Shown: in pieces, positions 23,940 through 63,286 of the stretch
Position numbering within the stretch: the stretch's first letter is position 1
Layout of the letters: each line of letters begins with the position of its first letter
DNA from: Chrysophaeum taylorii
Lineage: Eukaryota > Sar > Pelagophyceae > Pelagomonadales > Pelagomonadaceae
DNA length: 64,000 nucleotides
Assembly: GCA_029834535.1 (NCBI GenBank)
Contig: JAQMWT010000469.1
Coordinates: 48,721 to 112,720, forward strand
Reading direction: 5' to 3'
The notes under the pieces: model-generated
The model's input: the letters and a program-made list of their open reading frames with translations, nothing else
Databases searched by the model: none
What the model was told of the DNA's origin: nothing
Made by a program: the position numbers and the translations under genes

Positions 23940-25015
23940 GAATATTATTATCAACTTGACGGACGTCGTCGTAGCACGCGTGGTTTGTTTGTTTTTGTTT
24001 GTTTCAGAGGGAAGGGAGCCGCCGCCACCACATGAAGTTCTGGCATCCAGCACTTCTTTTTCACCATCATCATCATCATAAACAACGAGGGTGGGAGGGT
24101 GCTTAGGATCGATGCTTCTAAATGTCCGCGCGCAGCAGCACGCGAGCAAAAGTACTCTTGAAGAGTCACCTTCTTGCAGTCACCCTTTCTCCCCAAAGCG
24201 AGCACCTGCCGATGCGACCAAAAAAAAGTCGGGAGGATGTCCATCCGATCCTTTTGATGATACGTCCTGGAACGTCACGGTGGAAGATATACCGAAGACA
24301 GACCTTTCCTCGTTGTTGGAGGTATCCCGGCCTTTTTTGCCAGACGACATCGTCGCGGCGGCGATCGATCATTTTCGATGTTGACGCAACCCGCAACAGC
24401 TGCTGCGTTGGGGACACCATCGATGTGCTGTCTTCTTCTAGTCCGCCGACTGCTTGCTTCTTCCACTCGGAACGTTCTTTGCCACTCCCCCTCGACGACG
24501 ACCGACCGCCGTGTTCTCTCTTGTGCTCGTCCGTGCTCTCAGCCTTGAGCCGGAACTCCATTTTTTTCGTCGTCGTCGTCGTCGTCGTCGTAATCCGGTG
24601 CCGCATTTTCCTGATTGCCCACAACGCGTTTGTTTTCTATAACGCGTCGCGCAAACGTGCTAGACTGCCTCCGCGCGCGCCATTGCCGCAGTGCCAAAGA
24701 CGTTCACAGCCAGTCCCTATTATCACCAAGAGTGGCCTGCTGTCAGAGCCGGCTTCCTCCCGCGGGCCGATGTCAACTCCATCGCGCGCATCACAACATC
24801 GACCTGCGATTCACCTCGAGATTTTTTTTTTTCCGGCGCGCGTACGTACCAAGCCGAGTAGTCAGTCACTTCGTATCCTCGTCGAAGCATCAAGGGAGTC
24901 GAAGCACCGAACATCAAGGAGGGATCGCCAATTTTTTTTTTTTCAAACACCGCTCTCGTTTGCACGATTTATCATTCATTCATTCGTAACACAAGTTACT
25001 AATACTAGGGTTCGT
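23940..25015. other. Intergenic region between two EamA genes
   Basis: An open frame continues upstream from the gene at 25016 into this region, but it is low-complexity and lacks motifs, so I treat it as non-coding. A (GTC)n run lies at about 24568-24592 and two poly-T runs of about ten bases lie near 24825 and 24935. The remainder shows nothing. Confidence 0.5.
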
Positions 25016-25999
25016 ATGCTGGTTCTGTTGTTGAGTCTAGGGCACGGCCTCGCCCCACCGCAGGACGCCTCGAGAGTGCTCGAGCGCGCGGTTTCGCGGT
25101 CCCCGTACGCGACGCTCGTGGGGGTGACAGCAATCTGGGGCTCGCAGCACTCGGTTATCCGTTGGGCCGTGGGCGAGGGCGACCCCGAGGCTTTGACAGC
25201 ACTGCGGTTTAGCGTCGCCGCCGCGTGCCTTGCCCCCTTCGCCCCGAGGGATCCCGAGACCTGGCGCGCCGGCGCCGAGCTCGGCGTCTGGAGCTTCCTC
25301 GGCTTCGCGCTGCAGGCGGTAGGCCTCGAAACGACGACGGCGACTCGGTCGGCGTTCTTGCTTTATTTGAACGTTAAGCTGGTCCCGGTCGTCGGTCTCG
25401 CTCGGGGCAAACGAGCCTCGATCGGGGTCTGGGCGAGCGCGGCCTGTGCCCTCTGCGGAACAACTCTGCTCACAACGGATCGCGTTGGTGCGTTTGTCGT
25501 CGGGGACGCCTGGTCGCTCGCCGCCGCCGTAGCTTCGGCGATTTTCATAGTTCGATTGGAGGACCTCGCGAAGGGCAAAGACTCGGCCGAGCTCGCGGCG
25601 GCGACGGCGGCCACCACCGCCCTGCTCGCTCTCCTCTGGAGCGGCCCTCCCGAGCCGACGCCCGACGTGCTTCTCGCTTCGGTCTATCTTGGCGCGTTTC
25701 CCTCGGCCGCGTGCGGCTTTCTGCAGACGGCAGCCCAAAAATATCTCTCGGCTCCCCGGGCTGCGGTCGTCTACGCTCTGGATCCTCTCTGGGCCTACTT
25801 TTTCGCGTATATTCTCCTGGGCGAGACCCTTCAGCCGCGAGCGGCGTTCGGGGCGACCCTCGTCGCGATCGCCGCCCTCGGCCCGCCCGTCGCCGCTGCG
25901 ATTACGGACCCGAGGCGCTTACAGCAGCCCGCGGACGACGTCTATGCTGACGAGACGAGAGAGATAAAGAACGCGACTGATAAAGGTACTGAGAGCTAA
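25016..25999 (+). CDS. EamA/DMT transporter with N-terminal targeting segment
   Basis: The start at the ATG at 25016 gives a 327-residue protein of typical EamA length. The first 15 residues (MLVLLLSLGHGLAPP) look like a short signal or anchor. The first EamA unit begins SPYATLVGVTAIWGSQHSVI, with W-G in the position where the family has W-G-x-n/s. TALRFSVAAACLAPF and TATRSAFLLYLNVKLVPV match conserved EamA blocks, and the second unit holds YALDPLWAYFFAYILLGE, the strongly conserved E-P-x-x-a-x-l-x-a-x-l-x-L-g-E region with D in place of E. It probably exports or imports a small metabolite. The hydrophilic tail is short and acidic. Confidence 0.88.
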   Translation: MLVLLLSLGHGLAPPQDASRVLERAVSRSPYATLVGVTAIWGSQHSVIRWAVGEGDPEALTALRFSVAAACLAPFAPRDPETWRAGAELGVWSFLGFALQAVGLETTTATRSAFLLYLNVKLVPVVGLARGKRASIGVWASAACALCGTTLLTTDRVGAFVVGDAWSLAAAVASAIFIVRLEDLAKGKDSAELAAATAATTALLALLWSGPPEPTPDVLLASVYLGAFPSAACGFLQTAAQKYLSAPRAAVVYALDPLWAYFFAYILLGETLQPRAAFGATLVAIAALGPPVAAAITDPRRLQQPADDVYADETREIKNATDKGTES

Positions 26000-40070: not shown

Positions 40071-40880
40071 TTACATCCCGAAGCGGCGGTGGCGGTTGGC
40101 AAAGGTGCGGAGAAGGGAATCGAAGTCTCTTCTGGAGAGGTCAGGCCACAACTTATCGATAAAAACGAGCTCAGTGTAGGCTAGCTGCCATAGCAAAAAG
40201 TTAGAAATGCGTCGCTCGCCGGAGGTCCTGACTAGGAGGTCGGGGGCATCGGGAAGCTGGAGATGTTTAGTTATGGTGTCCTCGGTGATGTCGTTCGGGT
40301 CCAAGAGGCCGTTCTTGACATCCGTAGCGACCGCCTTGGCCGCCTCTGCGATTTCCATGCGCGAGCCGTAGGACACGGCCAAGTTTAAAACGAAGCCGTC
40401 GTATGTCCTCGTTTCATCGACGAGCGCTTGGAGTGCCGTGTCGACGTCCTCCGGGAGGCGGTTGTCGGTGCATAAAACACGAACCCGAATTCGCTTTTCC
40501 TGGGCTTTCTTTTTGATCGCGTCGCATCGGCCGACGAACGTCTTCATCAAGCAGTCGATTTCTGCCGGGTCGCGACGCCAGTTTTCGGTGGAGAAGGCGA
40601 AGCACGTCACCTCGCGGACGCCGCAGTCGACACACCATTCGACAACCTCGCCGAGCTTTTTTCCGCCGGCTTGATGGCCTTCGAGGCGACGCGCGCGGCC
40701 GAATTGCCGCTCGCCATATCTCCGGTTGCCATCCATGATGAATGCGATGTGTCGCGGGACGCGCTTGTTGTGATGATGATGACCTTGGCTGCTGCTGCTG
40801 CTGCTCCGTCGCGCCACGACGATCGTTATGATCAGCACGACGCCAATCACCAGTGATGATGCTGCTGCTGATGACAACAT
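40071..40880 (-). CDS. cis-Prenyltransferase (polyprenyl/dehydrodolichyl diphosphate synthase)
   Basis: The enzyme adds isopentenyl units in cis to an allylic diphosphate, making the polyprenyl carrier used for protein glycosylation or plastid lipids. All hallmark motifs are present in 269 residues: HIAFIMDGNRRYG (about 44-56) with the catalytic Asp, FAFSTENWRRDPAEI (about 94-108), and DLLVRTSGERRISNFLLWQL (about 211-230), whose Arg residues bind diphosphate. The C-terminus FANRHRRFGM keeps the R-x-G motif needed at the dimer interface for catalysis. An N-terminal hydrophobic segment (about 8-24) suggests ER or plastid membrane anchoring. It is divergent from the large gene to its right, with only 71 bp between start codons. 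Confidence 0.95.
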   Translation of the reverse strand: MLSSAAASSLVIGVVLIITIVVARRSSSSSSQGHHHHNKRVPRHIAFIMDGNRRYGERQFGRARRLEGHQAGGKKLGEVVEWCVDCGVREVTCFAFSTENWRRDPAEIDCLMKTFVGRCDAIKKKAQEKRIRVRVLCTDNRLPEDVDTALQALVDETRTYDGFVLNLAVSYGSRMEIAEAAKAVATDVKNGLLDPNDITEDTITKHLQLPDAPDLLVRTSGERRISNFLLWQLAYTELVFIDKLWPDLSRRDFDSLLRTFANRHRRFGM

Positions 40881-40951
40881 CGCGAGAGGCAGAGAAAAGG
40901 TACAACAACCCTTACCCCTATATTGGGTTCTGCTTTTGGCACAGCAGAAGA
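40881..40951. promoter_or_regulatory. 71-bp bidirectional promoter region
   Basis: The start codons of the cis-prenyltransferase (minus) and the large secreted protein (plus) are 71 bp apart. CCTATATTGGG at about 40917-40927 is the only TATA-like sequence. Sharing of control elements is inferred from the distance. Confidence 0.5.
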
Positions 40952-43198
40952 ATGAGATGGCGGTGCGTCGTCAAAGTGTCGTCGTCGAGCGCCGCCGCCT
41001 TGTTCGGGTTGGTGGTGCTGTACGCGACAAGATATGAAGTGCAGCCGGCGGCGGCGGTGAGAAGGACGGTCGAGGAGGCTGCGATCGAGCGGAGAGCACT
41101 CCGATCACTCCAGACGGTTGAGGAGGAGGAGGTGTTTGGCGCCGAGGTTGGGGAGGTGACGACGGGGATTGTCGCCGGGCAGGTGGAGGGATCGGAGATC
41201 AGGTGGAAGAACACGAACATCACCGCGATGAACTGCGTGCAAAACGCGCCTGTCCAGGTCATGCAGGACGCACCTTTCGACAAAACGCACATTCGAGCCG
41301 TGTATTTTTCGTTCGATTCGGATTCGATTCTCGGCCACTTTGCTATCGACGCGTACGACGAAGCGACGAACCCCGTCGTGAGGAGACACGGGCAGCCGGA
41401 CCGCGTGAACGCGGCGGCGATGTTCGTCGATTCTGACCATTCGAATTATCCGTTGGCGATTTTTCTCTTCGATTCGAACGAATTGGCCGTAGACGACGAA
41501 GAAATGAGCAGGGAAATATACCTGTGTCGGTTCGATGCGTTGCGAATCGAATGTTTCGAAGATTCGCCCTTGGAACGCGTGGGGCGCGCCTCGACGATTC
41601 CGTTCGCGGGTTTTATGCTAAATTCGACGTACTTCTACGCCAACGGCGTCGGCATCGCCGACAGAGGGGTATCGAGGCCGTTGTTCGTGGTCCACGACAT
41701 CACCTCGGATTCGCCGGACTTCAACGACAACAAACCCTATTACATCCAGCGGACAGCAAACAGGGGTCTCCGATGTTCGGATCTCACCGGCTTCTTCGCG
41801 GACTACGTCGCGGCCGAGGAGGTTCCGGGCGGCGAACCCGTCGCCGCGGCGGTGTCGGAGGCGCGCGCTTTCCTCACCTGCATCACCAGCAACGCTCTAG
41901 GCATCGTCCTTATCTCGCTGTCCTTCAACCTCGAGCCGCAATCATATTTATGGATCGAAGGCGTCGACCTCGTCGTCGCCGAGGATAGAATCTACCCTCC
42001 CGAGAACGACGGATCCAAGACGACCCCCGTGCGCTTCGACGACGGAGAGCAAGTCGGGAGCTTTGGAGCCTGCTACGAGCTCTATTCCCCAAAGACCCGG
42101 GTCTTTTGCACATCGAACACCGGCAAGGGTCTGTGGGAGATCCAGCTGCCGGTGGAAGTAGGATACTGCAACGACCGATGGCAGGCCGTCGCCTTCGCTC
42201 CTGCCAGAGTCGACGCCGGCCGGTGCCAGAGGTGGTGTCCGGCGACCACAGACACCTGTCTCCTCCTCGAGGAGGAGGAGACAGGTCAGCAGGCTCTCGG
42301 TGGCAAGCCGCGCGTCCTGTTCGTCGCGCCGCAGCGAGCCACGATCCGAAATGACGGTCTCACCTGCCGCGTGCCGGAGACGCAAGGATTGGTGGTCTCG
42401 TCGTCGTTAGCTGATGCTGTGATTACGGCGCCGCCCTCGCCCGGTCCGAAATTCGGGGCTGATCCGGTCGTGGTGGGTTCGCGAGGCGCCAAAGTCCAGT
42501 TCTGGCTGCCCCTCGGCAAATGGCTCCAGATGCTCTCGACGCCCGACAGTATCGACTTTTACGTGCGCTGCTTTGGCAAGCCGGGGACCCACGCCCAATG
42601 GATCGACGGAATCGTCATCAAAGAGCGAGGGGTAGTAACTCTCGACGTCATCGTCCGCCACCAAGCTGCTGCTGCTGCTGCTGCTGCTGCGAAGAACGGC
42701 GGCGAGGATTCTTCTTCTTCTTCTTCTTCTTCATCATCATCATCATCGTTGGAGGAGGAGGAGGAGGATGTGGTCTCTTTCCTCGACGTCAAGGTCGACG
42801 GCAGGCCCATCTTTAAGATTGCCGCCGGCTACGCCTCGAATCGAGGGTCGGCCGTCGTAGATTTGGCAAAAAACGACTACCCAATCCTCGACGAGCTCGG
42901 CGACGCCGTGTCCGTCGCGACCTCAGCATTTCAGCTCGAGTTCTTCACGATGCCGGCGCGCAAATACAAGGACGACTACGAGGCCGCCAAATGGACCCAC
43001 ATCGACTTCAAATTCGTCTCCGTCAAAAATCGAGACAAGTGCACGGGCTTTTTGAGCGATTTAATGTTTGGGACCGACACCTTCGACCCCGAACTCAAGG
43101 CTTCGTGGCTCAAGAAACCCCCCGTCCTCGACACGGACGACTACGAGGTCGAGGCCCCCGAGGTCCTCGCCGGCCTCACCGACGTCGTCTTTTCCTAG
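40952..43198 (+). CDS. Large secreted protein of unknown function
   Basis: I choose the ATG at 40952 (MRWRCVVKVSSSSAAALFGL) because it gives a signal-anchor-like N-terminus; an earlier ATG at 40853 would overlap the divergent gene. The 748-residue product has a hydrophobic segment at about 14-26, then an ectodomain with repeated beta-like blocks (IRAVYFSFDSDSILGHFAID, YPLAIFLFDSNE) and about a dozen Cys, consistent with disulfides. Near residues 570-600 three homopolymer runs occur in a row, Ala, Ser and Glu, encoded by GCT, TTC and GAG-type microsatellites; they form a linker. No known domain is recognised. No second membrane helix is seen. Confidence 0.75.
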   Translation: MRWRCVVKVSSSSAAALFGLVVLYATRYEVQPAAAVRRTVEEAAIERRALRSLQTVEEEEVFGAEVGEVTTGIVAGQVEGSEIRWKNTNITAMNCVQNAPVQVMQDAPFDKTHIRAVYFSFDSDSILGHFAIDAYDEATNPVVRRHGQPDRVNAAAMFVDSDHSNYPLAIFLFDSNELAVDDEEMSREIYLCRFDALRIECFEDSPLERVGRASTIPFAGFMLNSTYFYANGVGIADRGVSRPLFVVHDITSDSPDFNDNKPYYIQRTANRGLRCSDLTGFFADYVAAEEVPGGEPVAAAVSEARAFLTCITSNALGIVLISLSFNLEPQSYLWIEGVDLVVAEDRIYPPENDGSKTTPVRFDDGEQVGSFGACYELYSPKTRVFCTSNTGKGLWEIQLPVEVGYCNDRWQAVAFAPARVDAGRCQRWCPATTDTCLLLEEEETGQQALGGKPRVLFVAPQRATIRNDGLTCRVPETQGLVVSSSLADAVITAPPSPGPKFGADPVVVGSRGAKVQFWLPLGKWLQMLSTPDSIDFYVRCFGKPGTHAQWIDGIVIKERGVVTLDVIVRHQAAAAAAAAAKNGGEDSSSSSSSSSSSSSLEEEEEDVVSFLDVKVDGRPIFKIAAGYASNRGSAVVDLAKNDYPILDELGDAVSVATSAFQLEFFTMPARKYKDDYEAAKWTHIDFKFVSVKNRDKCTGFLSDLMFGTDTFDPELKASWLKKPPVLDTDDYEVEAPEVLAGLTDVVFS

Positions 43199-43308: not shown

Positions 43309-45159
43309 ATGTCAAGCGAGCGAGAAGACGAGCAGCAGCAGCAACAACGCGAAGATAAGCGCGAGTTTCCTGAGAGGACGCTGTGGATGGGCGACCTCGC
43401 GTTGGAATGGCGCGAGGAGGAGATCGTCGGAATGTTCAAGGATTCGGTGGTGAAGGTGTCGAGGCCGTTCGACCAGCGCGCCGACAGGCCCGCCCTGTAC
43501 GCCTTCATCGTCTTCGAGACGGAGGAGCTAGCGCGACAGGCGTACGACGAGCTGAATGGGCAGGCGTTGCCCGAGCCGTACCGTGGCCGGTTCCGGCTGA
43601 ACCCGCGGTGGGTGGCGCGCGCGCGCAAGCGGCGGAGGTCGTCGTCTCCTCCCGCGCGACGTACTTCGGGTTCTTCGCCGCGGCGCCGCGACCCGCCGAA
43701 CGGCGGTGGAGCACCGCGGCGATTCCACCGGCTAACGTTGTGGCCAGGGCCGCGAGCCGGCGAGGTCCCGCCGGGGGTTGCGGTTGGCAAGATATTGGAC
43801 GACTTCTCTCGGCGGTGGCTCTCGGAACCCGACGACGAGGCTTGGGCGCGAGCGTTGGAAGAGTCGCGGATTGTGGGTGCAATGGTGGATGGGGAGTTAC
43901 GGAGTCCCCAGGACCCGGTCGACGAGAGCTGGGAAAGGGTGATGCCCGTGCTGTCGAGGTCTCTAGAAGGCTACGAAATGCTCCGGCGATCTCTCGTTTT
44001 TTTGCTCGCGCTCGCCGTCTCGATCGAACTGCCCGAGGCCCGGTTTCGAGTCGCGCACGAGTGCCCCGACGGCTCGCTGCTCTGCGACATCGAATACAAA
44101 GATCCCCAGAGACTCGCGGCTTCTGTGCGGCAGCTCGTCGATCTCGACGTATCTTTTGTCGCTCGGGCGAAGAAAACGACGCGAGCCAAGGTGAGGGTCG
44201 GGGAGGACGTGCGAACTTTCGAAACCTCCAACCGCGGACTCCTGCTGGATTCCGCCCGCGGTTTGAGAGGATTTGACTTCGCGCTCGAGTCGGCCGCGCC
44301 CTACCTCAAGCTCTCGATGCGCAGCTCTAAACCCCGGACTCGTTCGAGCTCGGGCATCGCGCTGTGCGCGGGCCTCGAACCCGTCTCGTTCGACGTGCCC
44401 TACGATCCCGGGACTGTGGAGGCGATGGACGCGCATACCCAGCGCCACGGCTTGGACCGCGTCGACGCGATCAACGCACTTTTGGCCGAAGACCCCGACC
44501 TTCTCTACCAAAGGATACGCGTAGTCGAGGCTTGTTTCGCCCTCCAAATCGACAACCTCGCCGTAACTTGCGCTGGAAAAAGTGTCGTTCTGGCGGGACT
44601 CCGAGGCTCGGCCTGCGGCGCGATCGCCAAGCGTCTCGCTCTCGCGCTGGCCGCCCGCGGTGATCGCCCGAGAGAAGTCCTCGCCGACCCGGGGACGATC
44701 CGCGCGACGGGTATTTACTACCGCGTCGACCCCGAACTCTTGAGACAACCAAACCGCGAACTCCTCTGCGTCTGGTGCGACCCCCTCGACCAGCCAAACC
44801 TCGACGACCTCGCGCGCGTCTCTTCGCGGGACATTCGCGACTCCCGCGTCCTCGCCGCCTCCTGCTATGCCGGCAAGCAGCCCGCCGCCGACGTCCTCGC
44901 TCGTGACCTCCTCCTCCTCCGCAAGCCCCCGCCACCCTGCGACATCGTCTTTTCGACCTCGCTACCCTACGATCTCCACGTCCTCAAGCCCTTCATCACG
45001 CCCCACCTCCGCAACCTCAAACCTGAAGTCCCCGAGTATTTCCGCGCGACCCAGCTCCTCGCCACCCTCGACCAATTCGAGCCCATCCTCCTCGAAAACC
45101 TCCCCCCCACCTCCATCCTCAAATCAATTCTAACCGACCACGCCGACGACCTCCTCTAG
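43309..45159 (+). CDS. RRM domain fused to degenerate bacterial-type nucleoside (uridine) kinase module
   Basis: The N-terminus has a Gln-rich tail and an RNA-recognition motif at about 22-100: RNP2-like TLWMGDL and RNP1-like YAFIVFET. A Ser/Arg/Pro-rich linker follows (RKRRRSSSPPARRTSGSSPR). Residues about 225-345 resemble the ThrRS-type second additional domain that precedes the kinase in bacterial TGS-uridine kinase proteins (RRSLVFLLALAVSIELPEAR ... GFDFALESAAPYLKL). The kinase part starts near 428: VVLAGLRGSACGAIAKRLAL stands where the family has G-P-S-S-S-G-K-T-T, so the P-loop Lys is gone. QPNLDDLARVSSRDIRDSRV (about 493) and IVFSTSLPYDLHVLKPF (about 545) match conserved family blocks. 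The segment with the catalytic Asp is shortened. It is probably a pseudoenzyme with RNA-binding ability. Confidence 0.8.
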   Translation: MSSEREDEQQQQQREDKREFPERTLWMGDLALEWREEEIVGMFKDSVVKVSRPFDQRADRPALYAFIVFETEELARQAYDELNGQALPEPYRGRFRLNPRWVARARKRRRSSSPPARRTSGSSPRRRDPPNGGGAPRRFHRLTLWPGPRAGEVPPGVAVGKILDDFSRRWLSEPDDEAWARALEESRIVGAMVDGELRSPQDPVDESWERVMPVLSRSLEGYEMLRRSLVFLLALAVSIELPEARFRVAHECPDGSLLCDIEYKDPQRLAASVRQLVDLDVSFVARAKKTTRAKVRVGEDVRTFETSNRGLLLDSARGLRGFDFALESAAPYLKLSMRSSKPRTRSSSGIALCAGLEPVSFDVPYDPGTVEAMDAHTQRHGLDRVDAINALLAEDPDLLYQRIRVVEACFALQIDNLAVTCAGKSVVLAGLRGSACGAIAKRLALALAARGDRPREVLADPGTIRATGIYYRVDPELLRQPNRELLCVWCDPLDQPNLDDLARVSSRDIRDSRVLAASCYAGKQPAADVLARDLLLLRKPPPPCDIVFSTSLPYDLHVLKPFITPHLRNLKPEVPEYFRATQLLATLDQFEPILLENLPPTSILKSILTDHADDLL

Positions 45160-45403: not shown

Positions 45404-45442
<39 letters not shown>

Positions 45443-50850: not shown

Positions 50851-52377
50851 CTAGGGATTTTTTTGTTCGTCGCCGTTGTTGTCGGTGGCGGGGTGTTGGT
50901 CGGCGGCGGCGGCGTCGTCGTCGGAGGGGTTATTATTATTATTATTAATGGCCGCCGGCGGCGGAGTGTAACGTAGGTCGTTGAGGCGGAGAATTTGCTG
51001 GAGCGCGGCGCGGTCGAGCGGGCAGCGCTCGATGTCGGCCAGGTCGACCGGCGCCGTTTTGGTGGCGGCGTTCCCGAGTTCCTGCACCATCGAGTAGAGG
51101 AAGGGGTGCTTGAGGGCCCGCGACGCCGAGGGGCGGTTCGCAGGGTCGAAGCGGAGCAAACTGGAGAGAAAATCGAGGCCCGTCTTCGAATCTGAGAGCT
51201 TTGGGACGACGTCTGCCCACGAGTCGTAGTGCTCGTTTGCCTCGATCGACATGACGTAGGCCCGCGCCTTGTGGTTGGTCACGAAGGCGAGTTGCGCGAC
51301 GTCGCGAGGCCGCACCGCCTTAACGGCCGACGCGACGCGTCGAATTTGGTCGATGACGTCGCGGCCACCAAACAACGGCCTCCGCTCGACCATCTCCGCC
51401 ACAACGCACCCCAAACTCCACAAGTCGACGGCGCCGTCGTAGGAGCTGCTCAGAAGGAGCTCGGGGGCGCGGTACCATCGCGTCACCACGTACTCGGTCA
51501 TGTCGGTCGTCAGACACCTGGCCAAGCCAAAGTCGCACAGCTTGAGCTCGCACTTTTCGTTCAGCAGAATGTTCCCGGGCTTGACGTCCCGGTGCAACAC
51601 CCCCGCAGCATGCATGTGCTCGAGGCCGCGCAGCAACTGGTAGCAAAAGAACTGGACGTGGGCTCTGCTCAACGGTCTTCTCGCGTATATCACGTCGTGC
51701 AGGTCCGTCTGCAGCAGCTCGGTGACGATGTAAATTTCGTCGAAGTCGAGGCCGTTCGCGTAGCAGTCGTAGATCCGGAGCAAATTCGGGTGCGAGAGGC
51801 GGTGCATCAGCCTGATCTCGCGCACTATCCGTTTCGCATCCACCAGATCTGCGAACGCGTTTCCGATTTTTTTTATAGCGCACGGCAGCTCGGCGCGGAG
51901 GTCGCGACCCGACACGACCAGACCATACGAGCCTCGCCCGATCGCCTTGGACAAAGCGTAGCACGACGGATCGAAAAAAAAGTCTTCGAACTCCTCGGGG
52001 GGACTTTTGGGGGGAGGGTCTGCCGTATCGGACGCGACGCGCGCCGTCGCTTCCAACAGCGTCCCCGCGATCGCGCCTTGGAGCATCTCCTTCCACAGCA
52101 CGGCGTCTCGTCGCGACTCGGCCGCGAAACGCACGGTCTTCTCGCCGTGCACGATCAGCCCGCCCTCCTTCTTTGGGTCTAAACTCACTTTCGTCCGTCT
52201 GCTCAGCCGGATAGTCCCCACGGGTTGTCGCGCGTCGAGTCGTGCGTAGTAGTTCACCACCCGCTTTTCGTTCAAGCTCACAAAGTACCGTCGCCACGTG
52301 AACACCGAGCTCCGTTTCCGCAGCCACCCCTCGATCGTATGCTCGCTTGCGTTCACATGTGTTATCTGGCTCGACAT
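50851..52377 (-). CDS. MAP kinase with N-terminal PH domain
   Basis: I start at the ATG at 52377 (MSSQITHVNASEHTIEGWLR); the longer frame begins in a Lys/Thr-rich low-complexity stretch. The 508-residue product has a pleckstrin homology domain at about 14-105 (EGWLRKRSSVFTWRRYFVSL ... ESRRDAVLWKEML), which usually binds phosphoinositides, then a CMGC kinase at about 138-440. Glycine loop IGRGSYGLV, catalytic HRDVKPGN, DFG in CDFGLARCL and the activation motif T-E-Y at 294-296 followed by VVTRWYRAPE mark it as an ERK-type MAP kinase, predicted active. The tail is Asn/Asp-rich. The PH domain implies recruitment to membranes. Confidence 0.93.
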   Translation of the reverse strand: MSSQITHVNASEHTIEGWLRKRSSVFTWRRYFVSLNEKRVVNYYARLDARQPVGTIRLSRRTKVSLDPKKEGGLIVHGEKTVRFAAESRRDAVLWKEMLQGAIAGTLLEATARVASDTADPPPKSPPEEFEDFFFDPSCYALSKAIGRGSYGLVVSGRDLRAELPCAIKKIGNAFADLVDAKRIVREIRLMHRLSHPNLLRIYDCYANGLDFDEIYIVTELLQTDLHDVIYARRPLSRAHVQFFCYQLLRGLEHMHAAGVLHRDVKPGNILLNEKCELKLCDFGLARCLTTDMTEYVVTRWYRAPELLLSSSYDGAVDLWSLGCVVAEMVERRPLFGGRDVIDQIRRVASAVKAVRPRDVAQLAFVTNHKARAYVMSIEANEHYDSWADVVPKLSDSKTGLDFLSSLLRFDPANRPSASRALKHPFLYSMVQELGNAATKTAPVDLADIERCPLDRAALQQILRLNDLRYTPPPAAINNNNNNPSDDDAAAADQHPATDNNGDEQKNP

Positions 52378-52562
52378 CGACCTACACTTGTTTCTACCAC
52401 CACCACCGAGGGGATTCGATTCTACGGTCCCGTCCCTTACCCTTTTCTTTTTCTTTACCCTTGTTGCCCTTGTTGTTGTTGTTGTTGTTGGTGGTGGATT
52501 TTTTTTTTTTTTTTCCACCATTTTTTATTATTTTAAGTCTTTTTTTTTTAAGTGGGGGTCTT

Positions 52563-61780: not shown

Positions 61781-63286
61781 TTAGTTCCCTGGGACGCCGC
61801 ACTTGAACTCCGCGAGGTTGAGGTAGAAGATAGGCTTGCCCTTCTGGGCTTCGATGGTAATGGTGGCGACGCCGGAGGCGACCATCGCGATGCAAGCGGT
61901 ACCGATGATGGAGCCGAGGAGAAAGATGACAAAGGAGGGGCGACCCGTCTTGCGGAGGAGGGAGTCGACCGCGTGCTGGCCGATCTGACCCGAGACGAAG
62001 CCAAAGCCGAGCATCCAGCACATGAGCTGCCAACCGAGGTTGTCGCCGAAGACCCACAAGATGGTGGAGGAGCCAGCCGTCCAGAGAATAGAAAAGGCTG
62101 ACGCCGAGGTCGCGCAGCGGGGCTCCATGTTAACTTCCATAAAGATAGGGCCGAGGATCATGCCGCCGCCGATGCCGAGGAGGCCGGCCGCGCAGCCCGC
62201 GCAGAGGGCGTACACGGGAAACTTGGCCATAAATTTCGAGTCCCAGACGAGGTCGTTCTCGAGGGGGACGTAGGCGGCGCAAGCCGCGCGCCGATCGCTT
62301 CGCTTCTTGATGATCTTCGCGATGACGAGCCAGAAGCACGCGAAGACCGGGACAGGCGTCCAGTACCAGGTCCAATACACGCCCTGTGCCCAAGGTCTCG
62401 CGTTCCCGCCGCGCTCCGAGAGGTCCCAGGTCGCGCACGGAGAGAAGACGGTGCGGGACAGGAGTTTGTAGAGGACGAGGTAGGCGGTCATGGGTATCAG
62501 GACAGCGTACGCCCAAATAGGGAACTGGATCGCCTCGTCGGCAAGAACAGCCTCGAGCTCTGCGTCCTCGGGCTTCGCCTTGTTCTCGACCATCTCGATC
62601 ATCTTGCCGCCCTCGAGCGAATCCGTGCCGTGAGCTTCACCGCGGAGCCTGGCGTCGAGGGGCTTGGCGGCGGCCTGGAGCTTCTTTGCGGTCTCCTGGC
62701 GGCGTGTCCTGAGGGCTTTCTTCAGGGTGCGGCGCGAGTTGTACGAGAGCACGAGTGCCAGGAGTACGACGATCGCGATCTTCGGCAGAATTATGTTCAG
62801 AAGAACGCCGAACACCACCCCCAACAGCTCCCCGGGCTGCGTGAAGACGGCAGCCTCGTAGTCGATCAGAGGTCTGTTGGCCTTGGGGTGCTTCGCGAAG
62901 CCGATCGACACGAAGTTGCCGATAGCTCCGCCGAGAATCGTCGCGTTCGACAAAGGCACCGCTGCCTTGGGTCCGACGCCCAAAATCAGCCAGTAAATAG
63001 GCACGAACAGCCCACCACCGCCGATCCCCGCGCCCGCGGCGAGCGACCCCAGAACCAGGACCAGCGACGTCGCGATCCCCAGCCGGACGGGATCGACCTC
63101 GCCGAGCTTCTGCTTGGCTCCGGCGTACACCGACCTTAACTCCCGGTGCGCCTGGTGGTCCTCCTCCTCCGTACTGCTTGACGCCATCATCATCGTCACC
63201 ACCAACGCGAGCCCGAGCCCCACGCAGACGCCCGCGCGCCCGAGGTCCACGCCGGCTCGCCGGACAGACATCATCATTCTTCCCAT
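61781..63286 (-). CDS. TauE/SafE-family anion (sulfite-type) exporter
   Basis: The 501-residue protein has an N-terminal hydrophobic segment (about 18-36), then two homologous halves. Each half contains the TauE/SafE glycine motif: AAGAGIGGGGLFVPIYWLIL at about 84-103 and GLLGIGGGMILGPIFMEV at about 375-392. Around nine membrane helices are visible, with a long cytosolic loop rich in Lys/Glu at about 185-250 between the halves. Eukaryotic members of this length occur in plants, oomycetes and algae. Bacterial relatives export sulfite or sulfoacetate; the role here is inferred. It is followed by simple (GTTT)n repeats and then the mitochondrial carrier, same strand, 136 bp apart. Confidence 0.92.
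   Translation of the reverse strand: MGRMMMSVRRAGVDLGRAGVCVGLGLALVVTMMMASSSTEEEDHQAHRELRSVYAGAKQKLGEVDPVRLGIATSLVLVLGSLAAGAGIGGGGLFVPIYWLILGVGPKAAVPLSNATILGGAIGNFVSIGFAKHPKANRPLIDYEAAVFTQPGELLGVVFGVLLNIILPKIAIVVLLALVLSYNSRRTLKKALRTRRQETAKKLQAAAKPLDARLRGEAHGTDSLEGGKMIEMVENKAKPEDAELEAVLADEAIQFPIWAYAVLIPMTAYLVLYKLLSRTVFSPCATWDLSERGGNARPWAQGVYWTWYWTPVPVFACFWLVIAKIIKKRSDRRAACAAYVPLENDLVWDSKFMAKFPVYALCAGCAAGLLGIGGGMILGPIFMEVNMEPRCATSASAFSILWTAGSSTILWVFGDNLGWQLMCWMLGFGFVSGQIGQHAVDSLLRKTGRPSFVIFLLGSIIGTACIAMVASGVATITIEAQKGKPIFYLNLAEFKCGVPGN

Follow-up and report, generated by a model that had tools for sequence, protein, structure and literature searches.

Within a 64,000-nucleotide stretch of the Chrysophaeum taylorii genome (contig JAQMWT010000469.1, positions 48,721 to 112,720 of the forward strand; hereafter the window), one open reading frame places an RNA-recognition motif (RRM) in front of a sequence resembling bacterial uridine kinases, and this raises the question of whether its product may act as an enzyme, as a nucleotide sensor, as an RNA-binding protein, or not at all. 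An earlier note, made from the letters alone, had proposed a kinase fold conserved without catalysis and tied to an RNA-binding domain, and from this a new RNA- or nucleotide-sensing protein. Profile comparison sustains the architecture and the loss of the catalytic motifs, and it does not sustain the sensing of nucleotides. The reading favored here, which we hold to be somewhat better than an even bet, is that the gene fuses an RRM to a descendant of the bacterial TGS/ThrRS-editing-like/uridine-kinase family in which the kinase is dead, and that the resulting protein would serve as an RNA-binding scaffold or regulator.

A single frame with an RRM and a basic linker

The frame comprises 616 codons and a stop, begins with ATG and holds no internal stop (Table 1), at an overall GC content of about 65%; none of 2000 base shuffles remained free of stops. 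Its GC by codon position (0.69/0.47/0.78) is akin to the values in seven of eight other frames used for comparison, and the frame 1 codon score, taken from the codon usage of the neighbors, is above zero in each of the 12 intervals scored along it. At residues 101-180, which span the linker and the start of the TGS part, frame 3 scores 0.19 versus 0.07 for the coding frame, so that these residues may be weakly constrained or may include an in-frame intron. This dip would also suit the proposal that two neighboring genes or exons have been misread as one frame, which is nevertheless very improbable, as the frame is open throughout and, after residue 42, the next in-frame ATG comes only at residue 192, whereas the TGS match sets in at about residues 139-148. 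The in-frame Met codons fall at residues 1, 27, 42, 192, 212, 224, 337, and 373 only; since the RRM ends near residue 98 and the TGS part starts near residue 139, with no ATG between, the TGS-UDK part cannot start whole on an ATG of its own.

Table 1. Features of the RRM/TGS-UDK gene, with window coordinates and the evidence for each
Feature	Position	Strand	Basis
Single frame: RRM, RS-rich linker, TGS, ThrRS-SAD-like part, degenerate uridine-kinase module	43309..45159	+	ORF list, shuffles, codon scores
RRM, residues 25-87	43381..43569	+	Pfam RRM_1 and genome profile search
Basic linker rich in R and S, residues 99-138 (net charge +13)	43603..43722	+	composition
TGS-like segment, about residues 139-215; about 14 extra residues compared with most bacterial rows	43723..43953	+	alignments
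ThrRS editing-domain-like (SAD) segment, about residues 216-345, with about 30 columns gapped	43954..44343	+	HMM, alignments, fold search
Site of the ThrRS HxxxH editing motif, with R227 and F231 replacing the His pair	43987..44001	+	alignment
Linking and helical segment leading up to the P-loop, residues 346-424	44344..44580	+	profile alignment and model
P-loop relic GLRGSACGA, residues 430-438 (family GPSSSGKTT)	44596..44622	+	profile alignment
Residues 461-483; family about 66 residues longer, EGIHGLN block missing; low-confidence loop in model	44689..44757	+	alignment and model
Relic of the TQLNLDDHNRI/lid region, residues 484-541	44758..44931	+	profile alignments
C-terminal block, residues 542-616	44932..45156	+	75-member HMM and alignment

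Among the surroundings of the gene, a GTC trinucleotide run lies downstream of it (window 45404-45442), and a 781-residue frame (40853-43198, + strand) carries Ala, Ser, and Glu runs derived from simple repeats and has no Pfam match at E <= 0.01. Other frames in the window encode an EamA-type transporter (24122-25999, + strand), a TauE/SafE-type exporter (61781-63286, - strand) and, within one frame of 556 residues (50851-52521, - strand), a PH domain with a protein kinase domain behind it, which is the order of AKT-type kinases. Rfam yielded no match in the window at gathering scores and, with E allowed up to 0.1, none between 42500 and 46000.

The RRM is present where the earlier note had placed it, and the PF00076 search recommended there places it over the cut-off (Pfam RRM_1, 23.7 bits against 20.7); a six-frame search of the genome (70.8 Mb) gives 28 bits at this position, among at least 94 RRM matches genome-wide. 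The SR-rich linker described behind it is likewise found, with the composition and charge given in Table 1. The RRM carries W26, Y64, and F66, which we take to be the usual places of the aromatic residues of RNA-binding RRMs. Within the same genome it is closest to the first of the RRMs in a three-RRM protein (G000:C334; L012:1393-2931), at 22.4 bits with the next at 15.7, the two matching at 33% over 82 columns, and the best PDB sequence match of that whole three-RRM protein is NAM8, a U1 snRNP protein. In a comparison with the NAM8/RBP45/SECp43-type first RRM, the window RRM has an LW(M/I)G block and a C-terminal RLN-x-RW block in common with the first RRM of this NAM8-like protein, and it differs in being a single RRM where there would be three. 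NAM8 is absent among the 60 PDB matches listed for the window RRM alone, as it is among the 60 listed for the first RRM of the three-RRM protein alone; in both lists poly(A)-binding protein and others rank first. The SECp43 RRM (2div) does appear for the window RRM, with an E of 0.0085, and stands below PABP, RNA15, and RBM7 among the matches listed. Because NAM8 is not listed in the single-RRM searches, a NAM8/SECp43-type origin of the window RRM can be offered only as a suggestion.

Kinship with a bacterial three-domain family

The bacterial TGS-ThrRS-UDK members used for comparison were fetched with a bait sequence, which returned 80 loci, 75 of them full-length (among L017-L096), with ten phyla named in the record titles. 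When residues 135-616 of the window protein are compared with 23 of these members, hhalign gives a probability of 99.4% (E 1.1e-21), with residues 148-610 aligned to columns 20-556 of 566, or near the full length of the family, while the RRM and linker alone, as a negative control, reach 0.1% against the same profile. An HMM of the 75 members scores the protein at 73.5 bits, where the best of 2000 shuffles attains 2.5 bits and the next best of 616 six-frame segments of the window 1.5 bits. An HMM of eight members scores it at 90.7 bits, spread over three collinear segments; these eight were picked by a motif filter and are rich in Verrucomicrobia and kin, which may explain the higher score. 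Residues 346-540 alone, comprising the helical segment and all that follows it up to the end of the lid, reach 69.3% in hhalign (E 4.3e-5) and align only up to the Asp. In plain protein searches, a verrucomicrobial member used as query picks out the window ORF from the genome of the alga, in two segments (E 2.9e-6 and 7.2e-5). In the other direction, the window protein recovers a TGS-UDK member in four of four bacterial genomes, picked among the closer ones, with best E values of 3.2e-10 to 3.4e-6. Identity to the aligned bacterial members is 19-26%, and the best-scoring stretch is C-terminal (residues 544-608, 39.0 bits). Homology runs across the TGS, SAD-like, and UDK parts in the order of the bacterial family, as the earlier note had recognized from the succession of blocks. 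These profile comparisons show the protein apart from its RRM to be a near full-length, very divergent relative of the bacterial TGS/ThrRS-editing-like/uridine-kinase proteins.

Profile libraries and structure prediction are less informative for this part of the protein. The C-terminal 392 residues draw no Pfam match, and PF00485 and PF07973, which had been put forward as checks, fail to pick up the window protein at E up to 10; PF07973 is also silent, at E up to 0.001, on two intact bacterial members scanned, so that these checks would miss the homology. An NCBIfam match to a "rim ABC transporter" (E 0.077 and 0.15) was set aside as chance, and no other NCBIfam match to the C-terminal part was found. 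A model built with the bacterial alignment has a mean pLDDT of 70.1 and a pTM of 0.71, with the C-terminal modules mostly at 70-98, low confidence at about residues 281-310, 341-370, and 460-482, and a poorly predicted RRM (pLDDT about 28-55); prediction from the single sequence yields no usable fold (mean pLDDT 34.8). The PDB fold search gives six matches at E <= 0.001, of which four are ThrRS chains (6vu9, 1qf6, 1tje, 1nyq) and two are mL39 chains, and among the best 50 of 191 matches, where query-normalized TM-scores are low at 0.24 or less, neither a uridine kinase nor a phosphoribulokinase is present. The conserved kinase fold that had been claimed is seen in the model built on the bacterial alignment, but a match to nucleoside kinases was not reached on structure alone. 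Since the model leans on the bacterial rows and no kinase is listed, the kinase link rests on the sequence profile and not on independent structure.

In the tree, the branch leading to the window protein is 10 changes per column long and belongs to no starred group, so that no donor phylum can be named. Viral contigs contained no relative of the whole window protein or of its C-terminal 77 residues and no match to a full-length consensus used as bait; one viral locus, drawn by a shorter block bait, was rejected, as its frame is an unrelated P-loop frame of 218 residues. At least 80 open residues precede the match in seven of the 80 bacterial frames, and an RRM is found in none of these seven at E <= 0.01; a few frames are cut by contig ends and carry no information on this point. 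A six-frame search of the genome of the alga, in which introns were ignored and the best candidates scored, revealed no intact TGS-UDK copy and two PF00485 genes, one a strong match (L009) that is read as a plastid phosphoribulokinase, as would suit a photosynthetic eukaryote, and the other read as an ordinary uridine-kinase-like protein. The same genome has a separate ThrRS-like frame of 835 residues.

Kinase and editing motifs lost and kept

The core of the P-loop, said in the earlier note to be lost, is indeed gone, as GPSSSGKTT of the family is replaced by GLRGSACGA, which keeps G430 but has neither the Lys nor either Thr of Walker A; among the bacterial members, GxxxxGK[ST] is intact in 74 of 75, a count biased by a bait that itself contained the motif. 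The segment of the catalytic Asp had been described as shortened, and about 66 residues, with the EGIHGLN block, are in fact gone after the Asp column, yet the Asp itself is still in place (D460). The lid region retains three of its six conserved Arg (R503, R510, and R513), and the other three, R514, R517, and R522, are changed. With Walker A altered and the EGIHGLN stretch deleted, kinase activity is not expected, and we infer that it has been lost, an argument carried by the loss of Walker A. The retention of D460 and three lid Arg indicates that decay is not total. These residues, together with G430, might be taken as the remains of a rebuilt site, by which the protein would be an enzyme or a nucleotide-binding switch much as the nucleotide sensing of the earlier note supposed; set against the missing Lys, Thr, EGIHGLN block, and lid Arg, such a proposal appears highly improbable.

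The distribution of the losses bears on a second alternative. There are 107 columns that at least 90% of the 23 members conserve; the window protein retains 34 of them, and 20 fall in gaps. The retained columns number 6 of 12 in the TGS/SAD part, 3 of 10 in the helical segment, 6 of 14 around the P-loop, 5 of 26 in the deleted middle, 6 of 25 in the lid, and 8 of 20 at the C-terminus, so that the claim of outer blocks kept while the kinase motifs were lost stands, in the contrast of the C-terminus, the TGS/SAD part, and the P-loop stretch with the middle. It is conceivable, if rather unlikely, that the gene is simply decaying, that is, that an ancient bacterial-type TGS-UDK gene fused by chance with an RRM and is heading to loss with no present function. 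The low overall retention, the very long branch, and the fact that the gene is known here from one genome would fit this view; however, 616 stop-free codons at such a GC content, a coding-frame bias over most of the ORF, a deletion that is in frame and lies over the active-site blocks, and the score of the C-terminal block all argue against it.

The editing site of the ThrRS-like part appears to have an older history. Its motif columns were placed through the ThrRS-like protein of the alga itself. In the window protein, the HxxxH motif has lost its His pair (Table 1), and at the Cys and His columns of the second motif there are a gap and a Leu. The His pair is missing in 75 of 75 bacterial members as well, the first column being occupied by Arg in 70 and by other residues in 5, and the second by Phe in 48, Tyr in 17, and others in 10, while the Cys of the second motif is kept in 3 of 75 and its His in none of the 75. 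Because the pair is absent throughout, the SAD part looks non-catalytic for editing in bacteria already. The editing site would then have been lost family-wide and the kinase site later, in the lineage of the alga, an order that we infer. A broader and still tentative possibility is that two enzyme activities were shed in turn, tRNA editing first and then the kinase in this lineage, with the binding surfaces kept and an RRM joined, which would give a new class of RNA-binding regulator.

A putative RNA-binding role and known relatives

In the favored reading, a protein that has shed its catalytic motifs and gained an RRM would act through RNA. The TGS domain has been described as RNA-binding (PMC1949818), and in the portions available, this paper and PMC1779556 treat TGS without mention of uridine and PMC3532385 mentions no kinase; as a point against the favored reading, the TGS part of the window protein has a net charge of -6, which is not that of a basic surface. 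RNA binding by the protein is plausible by analogy with the RRM family and with the role described for TGS. The RRM would bind single-stranded RNA, the TGS and SAD-like parts would supply a second surface facing RNA or the ribosome, and the former kinase domain would remain as a structural or partner-binding platform. The whole may thereby form an RNA-binding scaffold or regulator, possibly nuclear, because its R/S linker is basic. This scaffold role is the best-supported guess at present. Some support may be drawn from the parent family, as the Thermotoga maritima member (TmUK) formed no UMP either at full length or truncated, while the full-length protein showed ATP phosphatase activity with uridine, results that its authors consider to fit a hypothesis of translation autoregulation, in the portion of the paper available, where work on interkingdom gene fusions is also cited (PMC10248530). 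Given the absence of UMP and the autoregulation hypothesis, it is reasonable to suppose a family-wide link to RNA, and it seems less odd that the alga has lost the kinase site. If two enzyme activities were indeed shed in turn, as in the broader possibility above, the bacterial three-domain "uridine kinases" would themselves be suggested as RNA- or translation-linked. A eukaryotic relative with an RRM and without the kinase site would point to RNA as the business of the family, and it would provide a concrete protein for testing. The case further indicates that the Pfam and NCBIfam profile libraries can overlook catalytically dead relatives. No description of an RRM with a uridine-kinase-like part was found in the open-licence literature; the bacterial three-domain family is known, and what is new, and real as judged from its sequence, is a eukaryotic relative that lacks Walker A and is fused to an RRM.

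Comparison with known systems begins with the middle of the protein. The N-terminal TGS/editing domain of ThrRS (1tje, 1qf6) is a fold match to this part, with a TM-score of 0.51 by the length of 1tje; the window protein differs from ThrRS in the Arg and Phe that stand for the HxxxH pair, in a second motif without an aligned Cys or His, and in having no synthetase core. The mitoribosomal protein mL39 is likewise a fold match (E 8e-4), over a TGS and SAD-like part that it may share with the window protein, and, to our knowledge, has neither an RRM nor a kinase part or relic. The presence of mL39 among the six best fold matches, and the kinship of the RRM with one in a NAM8-like three-RRM protein, would be compatible with a structural RNP component that resembles mL39 but resides in the nucleus or cytosol, where it would belong permanently to a single complex and would not regulate many RNAs. 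We consider this unlikely, since mL39 is not known to have a kinase part or an RRM, NAM8 is not listed for either RRM alone, and the acidic, polar N-terminus seems unlike a mitochondrial presequence. Uridine-cytidine kinase and phosphoribulokinase (PF00485) represent the parent superfamily of the C-terminal part of the bacterial relatives, from which the window protein is set apart by its invisibility to PF00485 and by the want of an intact Walker A. The bacterial three-domain uridine kinases, such as TmUK, have the same order of modules as the window protein, which differs from them in the added RRM and RS linker, the lost Walker A, and the residues deleted after D460.
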